64,000 nt of DNA from Nitrospirota bacterium (GCA_021811105.1 JAJZPM010000009.1:1-64000), one strand, 5' to 3'. Counted from the stretch's first letter, positions 17,909 through 24,727 are shown. The notes: generated by a model from the sequence alone, not told the origin. Program-made: numbers and translations.

Positions 17909-18595
17909 ATGGAAGAGACGCCAAAACTGATCGGGTTTGATTATGCGACCGCCTCTGTTGAGATCCTGGAGATTCTGTTGGAAGATACATCGGAGCCGGA
18001 TGTGTTCGACGAGGTCGCGAAGGCCAATCTGCATCGGCCGGAAGTTCTGAGACTCGTGATCGAGAATCCGGATACTCCCGGGGAGGTAAGGGCATATGTC
18101 GAGGAACGTCTGAGTTTGCCGGCCAGGGCGAGCCTCGCGATGGTGAAGGTCGAAAAGGCGAGAGAGACGGTGGAAACGAGGGGCGAGAGCCTGACGACGA
18201 AAATTCAGAAGCTGACCATCTCGGCCCGAATCCAGCTTGCCCTGAAAGGCGGCAGAGAGATCAGGGGAATCCTGGCGCGGGACACGAACAAGGAGGTAAT
18301 GCTCAGCGTTCTGGAGAACGGAAAGATCACGGAATCGGAGATCGAGACGATCGCCCGGTCGAGGCAGACTCTGGAAGAGGCGCTGAGAAGGATCGCCAGG
18401 AACAGGGAGTGGATGCGGAAATATGCGATTGTGCATGCGCTCGTGACCAACCCCAAGACGCCGGCGGGCATCGCGGTCAGCTATGTGAGTGATTTAAAGA
18501 CGAAAGATCTAGTGATTCTTGAGAGGAACAAGAATCTCGCGGAAGCGGTCCGGAGCGCGGCCAAGAAACTGCTGCACGCAAGAAAGCCAAAGTAG
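17909..18595 (+). CDS. Conserved hypothetical, helical repeat-like
   Basis: A 228-residue, highly charged soluble protein without signal peptide or membrane helix. Repeated short helices such as HRPEVLRLVIENPDTPGEVRAY and MRKYAIVHALVTNPKTPAG look like HEAT or leucine-rich-variant repeats, with the recurring phrase [EV]NP[DK]TP. No catalytic motif. ATG directly follows the TlyA-type stop (TAAATG), so the two are probably cotranscribed. Function not known. Confidence 0.78.
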   Translation: MEETPKLIGFDYATASVEILEILLEDTSEPDVFDEVAKANLHRPEVLRLVIENPDTPGEVRAYVEERLSLPARASLAMVKVEKARETVETRGESLTTKIQKLTISARIQLALKGGREIRGILARDTNKEVMLSVLENGKITESEIETIARSRQTLEEALRRIARNREWMRKYAIVHALVTNPKTPAGIAVSYVSDLKTKDLVILERNKNLAEAVRSAAKKLLHARKPK

Positions 18596-18638: not shown

Positions 18639-20714
18639 CTATACCTTGAACTTCTGTAGTTCCTTGAGGAGGTGGAGGGCCTCTTCTTTCAGAGAACCGA
18701 TCACCGTATTCATCTCGTCCCCCGAACGTATCAGCTTGTCCGAAGTAGAATGGATCTTCTCTATAGACTCGACGATGGCGATGCTCTTCTCTTTCTGCTT
18801 GCCCGTGGCGGCGGCTATCTGGGCGGCCTGACGGGAGACATTTTCGATCACGATCCCTATCTGCCTGCTGCCGTCCTTCTGCTCGTTTGTCGCCATTTTC
18901 ACCTGATTCGAGAGATCTTTCACCCGTTCGGACGCCTCGACGATGAACCTGCTTCCCTTGCTCTGTTCCTGTATCGCACGGGCAATGGTTTCGGTCTGTT
19001 CCGTCATCGCCTCAACCGCGTCGATAATCTGCTTGATTACCTGCGATTCTTCGGCGGTCGCCCGCTGGATGGCCTTGGCCATTTCGGTGGAAGCCCGGGA
19101 GCTTTCCACGATCTCCCCCAGCGCGCCGTTTACGTCCCTGACCAGATGGAGACCTTTTTCAACGGTCTGAATCCCGTCGGTTGCCATCATGATGCTCGAT
19201 TTTGTCACGTCCTGGACGGATTTGATGAGAGAGGCAATTTCGTTGGTCGAGACGGAGGCCCTCTCTGCGAGGTTTTTTATCTCGTCGGCAACGATCGAAA
19301 AACCTTTTCCATGCTCTCCTGCCTTCGATGCGAGTATGGCGGCATTGAGGGCGAGGAGGTTCGTCTGGTCCGCAACGTCGTCAATCACGGTGAGTATCTT
19401 GCCTATGTCGTCGGTCCTCTTTCCGAGGAGGTTGATCACATCGGACAGGGCGACGACGCTCTTTTTGATATTTTCCATCCCCGCGAGGGCCGCGTTCGCA
19501 GCCTGCATGCCCTTGTCCGACGCGTTGACCATTACCGCCTCCGCGAGTCGGACCGAGTCGCCGGCCCGATGTTCGATGTCCCTCGTGGTGGCACTCACTT
19601 CGTCGATCGACGACGCAATTTCTTCGGACGAAGTCGAAAGGTTTTCTATGCTCGCGGCGATCTGTTTGATCGAGGATGTCATCTCCTCGATGGACGAGGC
19701 CGTGTCATGGGCGGTCTCGCTGAAGACGTTGGCGTTTTCGGCGATCCGTTCTATGGATGCGGTCATCTGCAGTATCGCCGACGAGGTGTCGCCGGCGGAT
19801 TCCGAGAGGCTGCCCGTGCTCGCGACGACCTGGGAGATAGACCCGTCCACCTCCTCGATCGCAACGGCTGTCTCCTCCACCGCCTTTTTCTGGACGTCCG
19901 CGACCGACAGTATCGACTGCGAGGAAGACGCGATGTTCGCCGTGGCCTCCGAGACGCTGCCGGTGATGCCGCCGATCTTCGAAAGCATGTCCTTAAGGTT
20001 GAAGGCCATTCTGTTGATTGCTCTGCCAAGGGACGCGACCTCATCTTCCCCCCTCACATCCACCACCGCCGTGAGATCTCCCGAAGCGATCCTGTCTGCG
20101 GTTTTTTCCATTACCAGGATGGGCCGCGTAATGAACTTCGAAATCGAAAAATAGACAAGCCCGATCGAAATGATGAAGCAGAGCAGCGAAATACCGAGTG
20201 CCCATAAGAGGAGCATATAAAGTTGCATCCTGATTGCCGCCATCTTGACGCCCACCCTAAAAGTCCCTACGGTCTTCCCCTCGGCGTTGTGCAGCGGAAA
20301 AGAGATGTCGTAATAGGAGCCTACCGCCTGAGTGAGGGGCCGATCCGACGAGAGGGCGGCGGCGGTGGCTTTGTCGGTAAGGGTTTTGCCGACCTGCCCC
20401 GGGTTGTCCCTGAACAGAACTTTTCCGTCTTTGTCAAGCACCATCGCGTACCCTACCGCCTTGTCCCTTGAGACGAACTCCTGCATTTTCTCATTGATAC
20501 CCTCCAGAGACTCGACCGGGACGCCGAGACCGAGGACCTTGTCGAGGTCTCTCTGAAGCCCCTCGCCGACCGCCTCGGTCTTCGAGAGGATCGCTTTCTT
20601 ATATTTTTCGGTCGCCACGAAGGTCAGAACGCCGGTGTTTATCGCAATAATAAAGAAGAGAATCCCCGCTGTTACCAGCACCGCCTTTTTATTGAGATTC
20701 ATTCCGGATTTCAT
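18639..20714 (-). CDS. Methyl-accepting chemotaxis protein
   Basis: A 691-residue chemoreceptor: N-terminal transmembrane helix (residues 10-32), a periplasmic sensor domain of about 130 residues (single-Cache-like, [20 protein letters not shown]...[21 protein letters not shown]), a second helix (about 165-190), HAMP (about 192-245), then a long coiled-coil cytoplasmic signalling domain. The hairpin tip reads [37 protein letters not shown]; the usual AAIEAARAGE is [10 protein letters not shown] here. Its ATG overlaps the stop of the upstream binding-protein gene (ATGA). It is the last gene of the decaheme-barrel operon, so it may steer cells toward an electron acceptor or a ligand of the binding protein. 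Confidence 0.93.
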
Positions 20715-21670
20715 TTAATAACCTTTGTCGCGGACGTCAATAATTCGAAAGGTACCTTCAGCCCCATCGCGGTGGCCTCCTTGAGGTTTATGATCATGTC
20801 GATTTTCTTGGGTTGCTCAACGGGCAGGGAGGAGGGTTTGGCCCCCTTGATCACCTTCGCCGCCATTCTTGCGGCCTCACGGCCCTGCTCGCGGGGGTCC
20901 GCCGCTATGGTGAGTATCACCCCCGATGTCTCCCCGCCTCCGATCGTGGCAGCCGCGGGAATCTTCGCTTTCCTGGCCAGCCCGATTATATTACTGACGC
21001 AGTGCATCGCCGCACACCCCGTCGTGAGGAAAAGCGCGTCTACGTTCGCGATTTTCGGGGTGTCGGTGGCCCTTCTGATATTGAACCGGACGGAGCGGAA
21101 CCCGTAGGCTGCCTCAAGCTTTTTGACTTCGCCGGCCTGCAGCAGCGTGTCCTTTTCGGCGTCATTGACCACGACGCCCAGCGTCGAGAAATTTACAATG
21201 CTCTTGAAGTTTTTGATGAGGCTTGCGACCGGCACCTTGGAACTGATGCCCGTGGCATTTTTCCCCGTTATCCCGAGGGCCTGGGGGTCGGATACCCCGG
21301 CGAAAACGATCGGGATGTCAGACGTCTCGCCCATCGCCGTTATGGTGGCCGGAGCTCCGTAAGAAATGATTACATCGGAACCGATGGCGACCAGTTTTCT
21401 TGCTGCGTTTGTCCAGGACATCGGCTCCGGGGTCGGACTCTGCAGGACGATCTCCGCGTTGCCGGGACCGAGACCTTCGGCGGCCAGGGATTCGGTGAAA
21501 CTCCTGTGGATGTCCTTATAATAGGGGATGCTGCCGGTCATGATGACACCGATCATCTTCTGGTCGGCCGAGGCCGGGCCGGAAGAAAAGATTAGGAAGA
21601 ACGCGAGGAAGAGCGACAGGATGATTTTATCGGTGATCCGATTTGTTATGTATACTTTTTTGTGTTTCAT
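20711..21670 (-). CDS. ABC-type substrate-binding protein (ABC_sub_bind family)
   Basis: About 319 residues, exported: a signal peptide (hydrophobic [20 protein letters not shown]) then a two-lobed periplasmic binding fold ([54 protein letters not shown]). This is the TrpX-like ABC_sub_bind group, whose members bind tryptophan or other small aromatic or amide ligands. No permease or ATPase lies beside it. It sits between an MtrB-like barrel and a chemoreceptor, so it may present its ligand to the receptor. ATG at 21670 avoids overlap with the preceding stop and has GGTAGGGAA upstream; 21688 is the alternative. Confidence 0.87.
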
Positions 21671-21681
21671 AGCGCGGTTCC

Positions 21682-23661
21682 CTACCATCTCTTCGAGAGC
21701 GTCAGCAGGACTACGTGGGCCTTGCCGTCCACGACGTCGTCATTCGGGTTGTCCAGGACGTCGTCAAAATCGCTGTAACGGTACTCCACGCCCATCCCTA
21801 TGCCCCCTTTAAACTGGTACTCGCCTGAAAATGAAAAGAGTAATTCCCTCGTCTTCAACTCCGCGAAAGAAGCTATAGAGACCGGTAGGAGAAGGTTGAC
21901 GTCCGTCGGATAGAAAGCGCCTCTGCCGATCGTGTAACTCACTCCCGCATTGAGCGTTATATTATTTTTCGGAAGATAATTAATGTCAAGCGCATAATTG
22001 TGCATGAGATCCGCGTTCGGTACAAGGGGGTCTATACGGGGCACTCCAGTGATGTCATCGTAGACGATGTCCTGGCGCGTCTTATTGTGCGCATAAGCAT
22101 AGCTTGCCGTGAACGACAGGTCGTTCATCAGGAGATACGTCAAACTCCCCAGCAGCCTGTCTCTGTTGACCTCCCGGTCCCGGGCAGCGAGCGTGTCGGT
22201 AAAATGAAGGTCATCCCTCCGTTTGTTGGCGATCGCGAAACTTACGAGGGCGGTCACCTTCGGGTGGGGCGAGACAGAGACCGACACTTTCCCCTCGTCC
22301 GAACGATCAGGCTCCGTATTGTATGCCGGATCATAGTTGAACTTGTGCGTGTACCCGGCCCTCACGTATACGCCTTTTATGACCCTCAGGTCGGCGGAAA
22401 GGGAGGCAACATTTTTTTCGGTGTGTTCGGGGAGGTCCCATTCGAGCGACACGCTTCTGCGTATATTTTCGTAGGAGTATTCGCCTTTCACCGTCACCCC
22501 TGTCGTGAGACGGTATCTGATGACTGCCGAGGCTCTGTCCGTTACCGAGGATATAGAGGGCTCGACGGCATAAGTATAGGAATTCAGCGGGTTTGTCCTG
22601 TCCGCGATCGTGACCGTGTCGGGGTTGTCGATATCGGATTCCCTGTGACGGTACTTCAGAAAAAACGCCAGCCGAGGGGACTCGATCCACGATATCTCGC
22701 CAGCCCCGATGAAATAGTCGGCCTTCGCGCCGCTGTCACTGTTTTCCCTGTCTATCATGGAAAGGGTTGCCGATGCCACGAGGCTGCCGGTATATGAGGT
22801 ATGAATCTTCAGGGTATTCGAGGACCCCTTGAGGTCCGGGACGAGGTTATGCGGGTATTCTCCAGCGGCCCTTACCGCGGAAGCGGAATAAAAGTCATAA
22901 AGGACCTTGTCTGCTTCCTCCTTGAACCTCTTTTCACCGTGGGAGATGTCCAGCTCCACCGGTCCGAGATGCGTGTTCGCGCCTATGGTCAGGTTCTTGG
23001 TGTCCTGGTCCACGTCCCTGCTCTGCGACGTCCTGACGACATTGCCTGTTGTGCCGGAGCCGAGGAGACTCCTCTGCTGCTGTGTACCGCTTCTTTCTAT
23101 GAGGCTCCCCTCGAGATAGACATGGAGCGGATAATCCGGCGTCTTGAACCTGAGAAAAACGTTTGTCATGCCGAAACGTATCCCGTACTTCTCATTAGCA
23201 TCCCTGACGTCCACACCGGGAGAAGGGGTGGACGGGTCCAGGTCGATCAGCCTCACGTTTTCGAGATTATGGAACAGGGAGCTTTCGATTGTCCTGAAGC
23301 GGACGATGTCTTTATACATGTAGGTCAGGTCGCCGAAGTAGTCCTTCTCGTTCCTGACATCGAGGTCAAGATGGAGCCTGTTCGGAAACGAAAACATGCG
23401 CAGTTTGCCGCCGAGTACGACCGAGTCGTGGAGGTACTCATACTCTTCCGCCCGCCGGGAGCCTTCGCTGCTCACAAAGCGGTATCCCCCAGAGACCCAT
23501 ATCTCGGGTTTTATGCTCGGGAAAGTGTACGTTTCTTCCTGCGGGAGGGCCTCGTCGTCGCCGCTCTGCGCCGCTGTGTCGCTCCCGACCTCCTCGGCAA
23601 AGGCCCTGCCTCCAAAAAACATTATCGAGATACAGAGCAATGTGTAAAATAATTTTCTCAT
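21682..23661 (-). CDS. MtrB/PioB-like outer-membrane beta-barrel of a porin-cytochrome conduit
   Basis: About 659 residues. The chosen ATG gives a clean signal peptide (MRKLFYTLLCISIMFFGGRAFA) and a GGGGGAC site; the longer frame to 23814 runs into the upstream gene. The mature protein is rich in alternating aromatic/hydrophobic beta strands (VFLRFKTPDYPLHVYLEGSLIE; SLTYLLMNDLSFTASYAYAHN) and ends in LLTLSKRW, a typical terminal strand with C-terminal aromatic residue for BAM recognition. Directly upstream, 11 bases away, is a decaheme cytochrome, the pairing found in MtrAB, PioAB and DmsEF. It likely sheathes the cytochrome across the outer membrane. No N-terminal CxxC was seen. Confidence 0.82.
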   Translation of the reverse strand: MRKLFYTLLCISIMFFGGRAFAEEVGSDTAAQSGDDEALPQEETYTFPSIKPEIWVSGGYRFVSSEGSRRAEEYEYLHDSVVLGGKLRMFSFPNRLHLDLDVRNEKDYFGDLTYMYKDIVRFRTIESSLFHNLENVRLIDLDPSTPSPGVDVRDANEKYGIRFGMTNVFLRFKTPDYPLHVYLEGSLIERSGTQQQRSLLGSGTTGNVVRTSQSRDVDQDTKNLTIGANTHLGPVELDISHGEKRFKEEADKVLYDFYSASAVRAAGEYPHNLVPDLKGSSNTLKIHTSYTGSLVASATLSMIDRENSDSGAKADYFIGAGEISWIESPRLAFFLKYRHRESDIDNPDTVTIADRTNPLNSYTYAVEPSISSVTDRASAVIRYRLTTGVTVKGEYSYENIRRSVSLEWDLPEHTEKNVASLSADLRVIKGVYVRAGYTHKFNYDPAYNTEPDRSDEGKVSVSVSPHPKVTALVSFAIANKRRDDLHFTDTLAARDREVNRDRLLGSLTYLLMNDLSFTASYAYAHNKTRQDIVYDDITGVPRIDPLVPNADLMHNYALDINYLPKNNITLNAGVSYTIGRGAFYPTDVNLLLPVSIASFAELKTRELLFSFSGEYQFKGGIGMGVEYRYSDFDDVLDNPNDDVVDGKAHVVLLTLSKRW

Positions 23662-23672
23662 CGCTTGTCCCC

Positions 23673-24671
23673 CTATTGCGTGAGCCTTCTTCTCCCTGTC
23701 GGAGAAGGAAGGTCGGTCCCGTGTATCTGAGAGTGGCAGTCCGTACACCTGGTGTAAAACGCACCTTTTGACTCTGCGGACGAGGTGCTCGATGTCCGGT
23801 GACCCGAATGGCACTGCAGACAGAGGAACGGAGCCTGCAGGGTCAGGAGGTTGTTATTCACGGAACCGTGGGCACTATGGCATGTCCTGCAGTCCTCCAT
23901 CAGGTCTGCGTGTTCGAAGACGAAAGGCCCCTCTTTCTCCGCGTGACACTGCGTGCAGGTCTCTTTGACGGTCTCTTTTCTCAGCATTTTCTCGCTTGAG
24001 GTGCCGTGCGGGTCATGGCAGCTCACGCAGAAAATCTTCTTTTCATGAATCGGGTGATGGCTCGGCAGCGCGAACTGCACCTTGGCGTCCTGATGGCAGG
24101 TCTCGCACATGCTTTCCATGTCCGCAAGCCTAACCGTCAGATCGGGTCCCGCATGTACGTTGTGGCAGTCGAAGCAGGAGACGTCGTTGATCGCATGTTC
24201 GCCGGCGTTCCAGTTATGGAGATTGAATGTCGCATTGGCGGTATGGCATTTGAGACATATCAGGGACTTCGCCTGAGCAGGAAGGTTTTTCAGGTCGATC
24301 AGGGTCCTGTAATCGCATGCGGTCTGTTTTCCTTCCTTCGCGTCCTCCGCCACCTTTTCAGGGGTGAGGCCCTCTACGGCAAGACTTCCAGGTCCGTGGC
24401 ACGATTCGCAGTCCACGAGCGGTATGCCGGACTTCTTCGACAACTGGACCCCCATTGTGCTTGCATCGAAATCGCGCCTAATCTTGTCGTGGTAGTGGCA
24501 GGCGGAAAGACAGGTGGTCGTTCCGACGTAGTTCGCGTCGAGTCTTCCGGCTATCATCCGCTCATATTCCTTCATCGGGAGGATAGCCTTGGAGGATTTA
24601 AGGGATTCGCAGCCCGCGAGATGGACGGTCGCTAAAGCGATAAAAATCAGGAGACTGCGCACAATATTCAT
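23673..24671 (-). CDS. Decaheme MtrA/DmsE-like c-type cytochrome lipoprotein
   Basis: About 332 residues. A lipoprotein signal (LATVHLAGC, lipobox LAGC) begins at the chosen ATG, which has GGAGGGAAGC upstream. Nine CxxCH sites are visible (CESCH, CLKCH, CFDCH, CETCH, CVSCH, CTQCH, CRTCH, CLQCH, CTDCH) plus one CxxxCH, CLSACH, at the first position, giving ten hemes as in MtrA, DmsE and PioA. Distal ligand candidates are present as HxxH pairs (HHPIH, DPHGT, SAHGS). It should form the wire inside the barrel encoded next, carrying electrons between periplasm and cell surface. Lipidation differs from soluble MtrA. Confidence 0.92.
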   Translation of the reverse strand: MNIVRSLLIFIALATVHLAGCESLKSSKAILPMKEYERMIAGRLDANYVGTTTCLSACHYHDKIRRDFDASTMGVQLSKKSGIPLVDCESCHGPGSLAVEGLTPEKVAEDAKEGKQTACDYRTLIDLKNLPAQAKSLICLKCHTANATFNLHNWNAGEHAINDVSCFDCHNVHAGPDLTVRLADMESMCETCHQDAKVQFALPSHHPIHEKKIFCVSCHDPHGTSSEKMLRKETVKETCTQCHAEKEGPFVFEHADLMEDCRTCHSAHGSVNNNLLTLQAPFLCLQCHSGHRTSSTSSAESKGAFYTRCTDCHSQIHGTDLPSPTGRRRLTQ

Positions 24672-24698
24672 GCTTCCCTCCTTATAATTTCGTGTACA

Positions 24699-24727
24699 AT
24701 AATAAGAATTCCTCACTTATATGTCAA
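24699..24727 (-). promoter_or_regulatory. Near-consensus sigma-70 promoter of the decaheme-barrel operon
   Basis: Read on the minus strand: TTGACA (-35, complement of 24722-24727), a 17-base spacer, then TATTAT (-10, complement of 24699-24704). Transcription would start near 24692, about 20 bases before the decaheme ATG at 24671. Five to six matches per box and ideal spacing. Confidence 0.75.

Follow-up and report, generated by a model that had tools for sequence, protein, structure and literature searches.

The window, a stretch of 64,000 nucleotides from a Nitrospirota bacterium, carries four genes in a row on its minus strand. The first (23673..24671) encodes a ten-heme c-type lipoprotein of the MtrA/DmsE type with 332 aa, which was assigned by the profile TIGR03508, and the second (21682..23661) a predicted outer-membrane barrel of 659 aa with 26 strands and the MtrB fold, as judged from an AlphaFold2 model and its PDB match. 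The third gene (20711..21670) furnishes a periplasmic binding protein (SBP) of the ABC_sub_bind/TrpX type with 319 aa, recognised by PF04392 and by its model, while the fourth (18639..20714) encodes a chemoreceptor of 691 aa, in which domain profiles find an sCache_3_2, a HAMP and an MCP signalling domain with long arms. The cytochrome and barrel genes are separated by 11 bases, as are the barrel and SBP genes; the SBP and receptor genes share a 4-base ATGA overlap. An earlier note, made from the sequence alone, had described just such a row of same-strand genes with 11-base gaps or overlaps, and all four were found where it had placed them. The promoter that it had marked 5' of the cytochrome gene, TTGACA-17-TATTAT (24699..24727, minus strand), is of the sigma-70 type and indeed has 11 of the 12 consensus bases. 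When the window is aligned with six relatives, TTGAC and TATTAT do not vary, whereas the upstream sequence around them has mostly diverged, and a sequence scan reported no terminator-like site inside the operon on the minus strand. Because the promoter elements are conserved and no such site interrupts the row, the four genes are likely read as one transcript. The operon stands isolated, its divergent upstream neighbour being, by eye, a glycogen branching enzyme gene. At the other end (17909-18595), a gene for 228 aa without a Pfam match runs convergent to the receptor gene, and two close relatives (L031, L034) have a gene of similar length at the same place.

Results and Discussion

The cytochrome reaches 250.5 bits with the DmsE family profile TIGR03508 (cut-off 192.2) and matches chain A of 6R2Q with an E value of 1.8e-40. 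We take this chain to be MtrA, although its molecule label in our copy is odd; the entry is titled 'Structure of the Mtr complex'. With a lipobox reading LAGC and ten heme sites, the ten-heme lipoprotein of the earlier note stands, with one correction: nine of the sites are CxxCH, while the first, CLSACH (24495..24512, minus strand, read from the sequence), is CxxxCH. The CxxxCH site was present in all 44 cytochrome homologues that retain the N-terminus. The barrel model shows 26 long strands at a mean pLDDT of 86.9, and its top PDB match is MtrB (6r2q_B; E 4.9e-22, TM 0.71), with the second match following at E 3.6e-9, so that the proposed outer-membrane barrel is borne out by structure prediction. 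In sequence searches the protein remains under the cut-offs, with 22.7 against 23 for PF11854 and 27.9 against 240 for TIGR03509. As it lies below these curated MtrB/PioB thresholds, it represents a divergent subfamily, and we therefore claim the fold and the arrangement but not an MtrB/PioB identity.

The pair resembles MtrAB, DmsEF and PioAB in that a decaheme cytochrome of the MtrA/DmsE family is encoded next to a 26-strand barrel of the MtrB fold. It differs from them in the lipoprotein nature and the CxxxCH first heme site of the cytochrome, in the scores of the barrel under the MtrB_PioB cut-offs, and in that the conduit is followed by an SBP and a receptor, in an operon without a surface partner. 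High-scoring named relatives are the Geobacter families GSU2203/GSU2204 (NF041028 and NF041027, 238 and 132 bits), whose curated cut-offs of 325 and 350 are however not reached. Judged from the profile matches and the barrel model, the ten-heme lipoprotein would be lodged in the barrel of 26 strands and conduct electrons across the outer membrane.

No surface cytochrome is encoded in the window operon, a point against the conduit as explained below. Among the loci read, L070 and L129 alone have MtrC-like proteins with 12-13 hemes as part of the unit, and some loci encode multiheme proteins upstream of it. Two-gene conduits without a surface cytochrome resemble PioAB and MtoAB, and nothing in the sequence fixes the direction of flow. 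The conduit could thus also work inward, oxidising an external donor such as Fe(II) that the sensor would track, with the same anatomy as in the reading favoured below and the electron flow reversed. We regard this as unlikely, given that the closest named profile is that of the acceptor-side DmsE family and that MtrC-like proteins join the unit in the two loci just named.

A scan of 84,980 species genomes gave 45 named loci, mostly from Nitrospirota; four are titled Deltaproteobacteria or Desulfobulbaceae. The SBP is the next gene after the barrel in 36 of the 39 named loci with sequence beyond the barrel. The remaining three (L047, L050, L072) have a conduit without an SBP, which counts against our best explanation. 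The output is visible in 35 named loci and consists of a receptor (24 loci), a PhnD-like SBP (10 loci) or, in L049, a PhnD-like protein alone; the lack of a kinase in L049 also counts against this explanation. The receptor gene adjoins the SBP gene in 21 of its 24 loci, and stands behind a 12-heme MtrC-like protein in L070. In L052 and L053 it is found upstream of the cytochrome gene, at the opposite end of the unit but still within the cluster. The receptor frame is split in two in L055 and L063. A heme kinase was seen in 8 of the 10 loci with a PhnD-like SBP, the other 2 ending at a contig edge. In a phylum sample of 246 genomes spread over Nitrospirota, the barrel was present in 43; the 20 stretches read, three of which repeat earlier loci, showed the SBP next in 19 cases, a receptor in 13 and a kinase cassette in 4. 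The gene-neighbourhood search that the earlier note had proposed thus finds its last two genes kept, and their loss in relatives is ruled out by the recurrence of the order in dozens of genomes. Because the order recurs so widely, the arrangement is more than chance. A second Nitrospirota family (L135-L143 except L139) carries two tandem receptor genes behind the SBP, and several of its members have a 2-5-heme protein just ahead of the cytochrome.

Among 61 relatives, the sensor domain of the receptor, at more than 100 bits, was detected 28 times, always within 3.5 kb of a barrel (28/28) and never in a barrel-less genome (61 genomes; p 7e-12 by Fisher's test, without correction for ancestry).

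The SBP scores 105 bits with PF04392, and its model (pLDDT 90.4) finds 3lkv, 3lft (with L-Trp) and 6hni as top fold matches. The predicted fold is thus that of the family, while the sequence stays under the TrpX equivalog cut-off (NF041285, 115 bits against 390). In agreement with the earlier description of a protein without transporter partners, neither a permease nor an ATPase gene is present in the window cluster, and no permease was seen in the clusters read; in these loci the SBP gene is followed by one for a receptor, a PhnD-like SBP or a cytochrome. Elsewhere, other PF04392 proteins are encoded directly ahead of kinases (L096-L100 and L109, including contigs C33 and C31 of the window genome), and in the same genomes other SBP types precede receptors (L108, L118). 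Two of these loci, L096 (C33) and L109 (C31) of one genome, show a TonB-receptor-like gene, a radical-SAM-like gene (both by eye), an ABC_sub_bind gene and a kinase gene in a row.

The putative sensory part of the unit is exchanged in nature. Sister loci have, in place of the SBP-chemoreceptor pair, an SBP, a PhnD-like SBP and a heme-bearing histidine kinase with a CxxCH motif ahead of its HAMP domain. This cassette follows the conduit in L033, L037, L041, L058 and others, and 18 stand-alone loci in relatives hold it away from the conduit, with SBP, PhnD-like SBP (PF12974) and, if the contig is long enough, the kinase. In quick trees, which contain some long branches, the barrels of L033, L037, L041 and L058 fall among the receptor-type barrels of the window's family (support 96), while their SBPs group with those of the stand-alone kinase cassettes (98), all kinase-type SBPs forming one clade (99). 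A single clade of the barrels from all kinase-type rows was rejected (p-AU 0.0002). Since the barrel and SBP trees disagree in the swapped loci, the SBP travels with its receptor and not with the conduit; trees and 61-genome linkage together show that SBP and receptor are inherited jointly. The SBP tree follows the signalling partner and family SBPs precede kinases elsewhere; most likely, therefore, the SBP serves as a subunit for sensing and not as part of a transporter.

The kinases encoded at L128:2131-3972, L033:13823-15784 and L066:13749-15986, each with a single CxxCH ahead of HAMP and two binding proteins as partners, may possibly form a family of heme-based redox sensors. In L033, L074, L075 and L076, a gene resembling DtxR and metal-dependent regulators (by eye) runs convergent to the kinase cassette.

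These trees also bear on the idea that the SBP is a delivery protein, bringing its ligand to the conduit or some other reductase of the periplasm, while the Cache domain of the receptor senses the redox state or a separate ligand. Such a role would fit the fact that the SBP is the part most tightly tied to the barrel, being kept where the receptor lies elsewhere or was not seen (L052, L053, L069, L133), and the conserved Cys pair of the SBP could be redox-active. Against it, the SBP tree tracks the signalling partner instead of the barrel, and SBP-kinase cassettes also stand alone where there is no conduit; we consider this alternative quite improbable.

The Cys pair itself, C219/C224 (CAAMHC, 20999..21016, minus strand), is placed by profile alignment at the DN residues of TrpX, and the motif (CAAMHC and variants) opens a helix in the SBP model. 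In the first sets read it was found in 28 of 29 conduit SBPs that have this receptor next and in none of 28 kinase-cassette SBPs; the SBP of L049, which has the PhnD protein but no kinase, carries it as well. As a general mark of receptor pairing the motif was dropped, being absent in the more distant receptor loci L135-L143. The pocket of AioX includes a Cys, and such a residue can serve in oxyanion sensing (PMC5908839); the Cys of the window SBP may be likened to it by analogy.

The closest solved relatives of the SBP bind aromatic amino acids, as in 3lft with L-Trp, and other SBP-receptor pairs do occur in these genomes. SBP and receptor might then be a common chemotaxis pair that responds to an aromatic amino acid or a similar nutrient, without functional relation to the conduit and tied to it by shared control only. 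This we judge unlikely: in SBPs of the window's class the Cys motif takes the place of the DN of TrpX, neither the receptor sensor nor its SBP type turned up anywhere but next to the barrel, and the kinase-type loci retain an SBP at the same position. In the reading that we prefer, a dedicated sensory pair, the SBP would bind a small periplasmic ligand linked to the use of the conduit; the likeliest candidates are a soluble acceptor or donor of electrons and the product or carrier of such a compound. The SBP would also dock on the sCache domain of the receptor, which would signal to a CheA array. One point against it is that the sCache domain may bind a ligand of its own without the SBP.

The chemoreceptor with a periplasmic sensor domain that had been read from the sequence is confirmed by the scores for sCache_3_2 (48.6 bits), HAMP (57.6 bits) and MCP (141 bits). 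Regarding its output, the window's genome contains flagellin, three CheA genes and several receptors. Contig C70 encodes a CheA, an AAA ATPase, a CheW, two receptors, one of which has a CxxCH motif and the class-40H sensor domain (PF21563), and a HEAT-repeat protein, together with, by eye, a further CheW, CheR, CheB and CheY. From tip to C-terminus, the window receptor has 242 residues, that of the C70 cluster 243 and that of the flagellar cluster on C45 163. Among 23 near-complete receptor genomes, the C70-type CheA is present in 22 (p 0.0006) and the C45-type in 4 (p 0.14), both values uncorrected for ancestry and with other CheA types existing. Arm length and co-occurrence point to the C70 cluster, so that the signal may serve to colonise surfaces or to control genes, in place of flagellar steering or in addition to it; the receptor probably couples to the C70 CheA-ATPase-CheW array. 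The earlier proposal of a self-contained unit that moves electrons and steers the cell is upheld as regards the unit, conserved across Nitrospirota and with an SBP that is sensory by context; its idea that the same acceptor or a shuttle is sensed is conjectural, and the steering is less secure, as the Che cluster indicated is a separate one.

We had also considered receptor class 64H from the raw arm length; this was dropped, as the same-armed receptor has the class-40H sensor domain PF21563. Two further chemoreceptors, L106:10345-13194 on contig C70 and L144:1747-4641, have a domain of the PhnD type (PF12974) appended behind the signalling domain. It is apparently cytoplasmic because no membrane segment lies between (by eye). 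The L144 copy sits in a conduit locus.

Signalling through a membrane receptor by binding proteins, of type I or other kinds, is known from TorT-TorS, XylFII-LytS, MBP-Tar and RBP-Trg, and XylFII (5xss) is among the fold matches of the window SBP. In contrast to these systems, the cluster here lacks a transporter, and an electron conduit accompanies the pair. AioX and ArrX are precedents for binding proteins that sense a respiratory substrate (PMC5908839), and an Mcp gene beside aio is one for a receptor next to respiratory genes (PMC5335332). With AioX-AioS, ArrX, ArxX and TtrS the window cluster shares a transporter-less binding protein, the sensing of a respiratory substrate, here proposed, and the position beside respiratory genes (PMC5908839). 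The likeness to the PhnD-type AioX extends to the kinase cassettes, which hold PF12974 proteins. The window cluster departs from these systems in having a TrpX-type SBP that is partnered with a chemoreceptor, and an outer-membrane conduit as its respiratory part. In Geobacter, conduits and sensing network are found at separate loci. Its electrode-sensing esnC-GSU2221-esnB genes encode CheA, ATPase and CheW, and mutants fail with an electrode but not with Fe(III) oxide (PMC5585712). The C70 cluster, compared by layout, is reminiscent of EsnABCD of Geobacter sulfurreducens, with CheA, ATPase and CheW in a row, which in Geobacter have a tie to extracellular respiration (PMC5585712); EsnA, however, is devoid of a periplasmic domain and has no conduit next to it.

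Conclusion

In summary, we established the four genes, their conserved linkage, the predicted folds of barrel and SBP, and the replacement of the sensory cassette in sister loci. The sequence evidence is best explained, at a probability of roughly 0.6, by an outer-membrane conduit that forms one conserved unit with a dedicated sensory SBP-receptor pair signalling to a CheA array. More tentatively, and at less than even odds, we may be looking at an unnamed, widespread architecture of Nitrospirota and some Desulfobacterota, a conduit with an interchangeable sensory module for the substrate of the conduit or for a shuttle that comes back to the cell; in the window's lineage this module would report to an Esn-like array that decides on the commitment to extracellular respiration. 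The porin-cytochrome kind is already known, and the new part would be the conserved sensory SBP-receptor pairing in the cluster. We found no description of the four-gene unit in the open-access literature, a scope that leaves most subscription papers outside, and the earlier note's view of it as undescribed agrees with this search. It has long been asked how cells with extracellular respiration recognise an electron acceptor that they can use. The natural replacement of the sensory cassettes makes a sensory role directly testable by swapping, and, with conduit and sensor in one conserved cluster, the ligand of the SBP would name the conduit's natural partner. The finding suggests that many Nitrospirota bacteria possess a cell-surface electron port with its own sensor.
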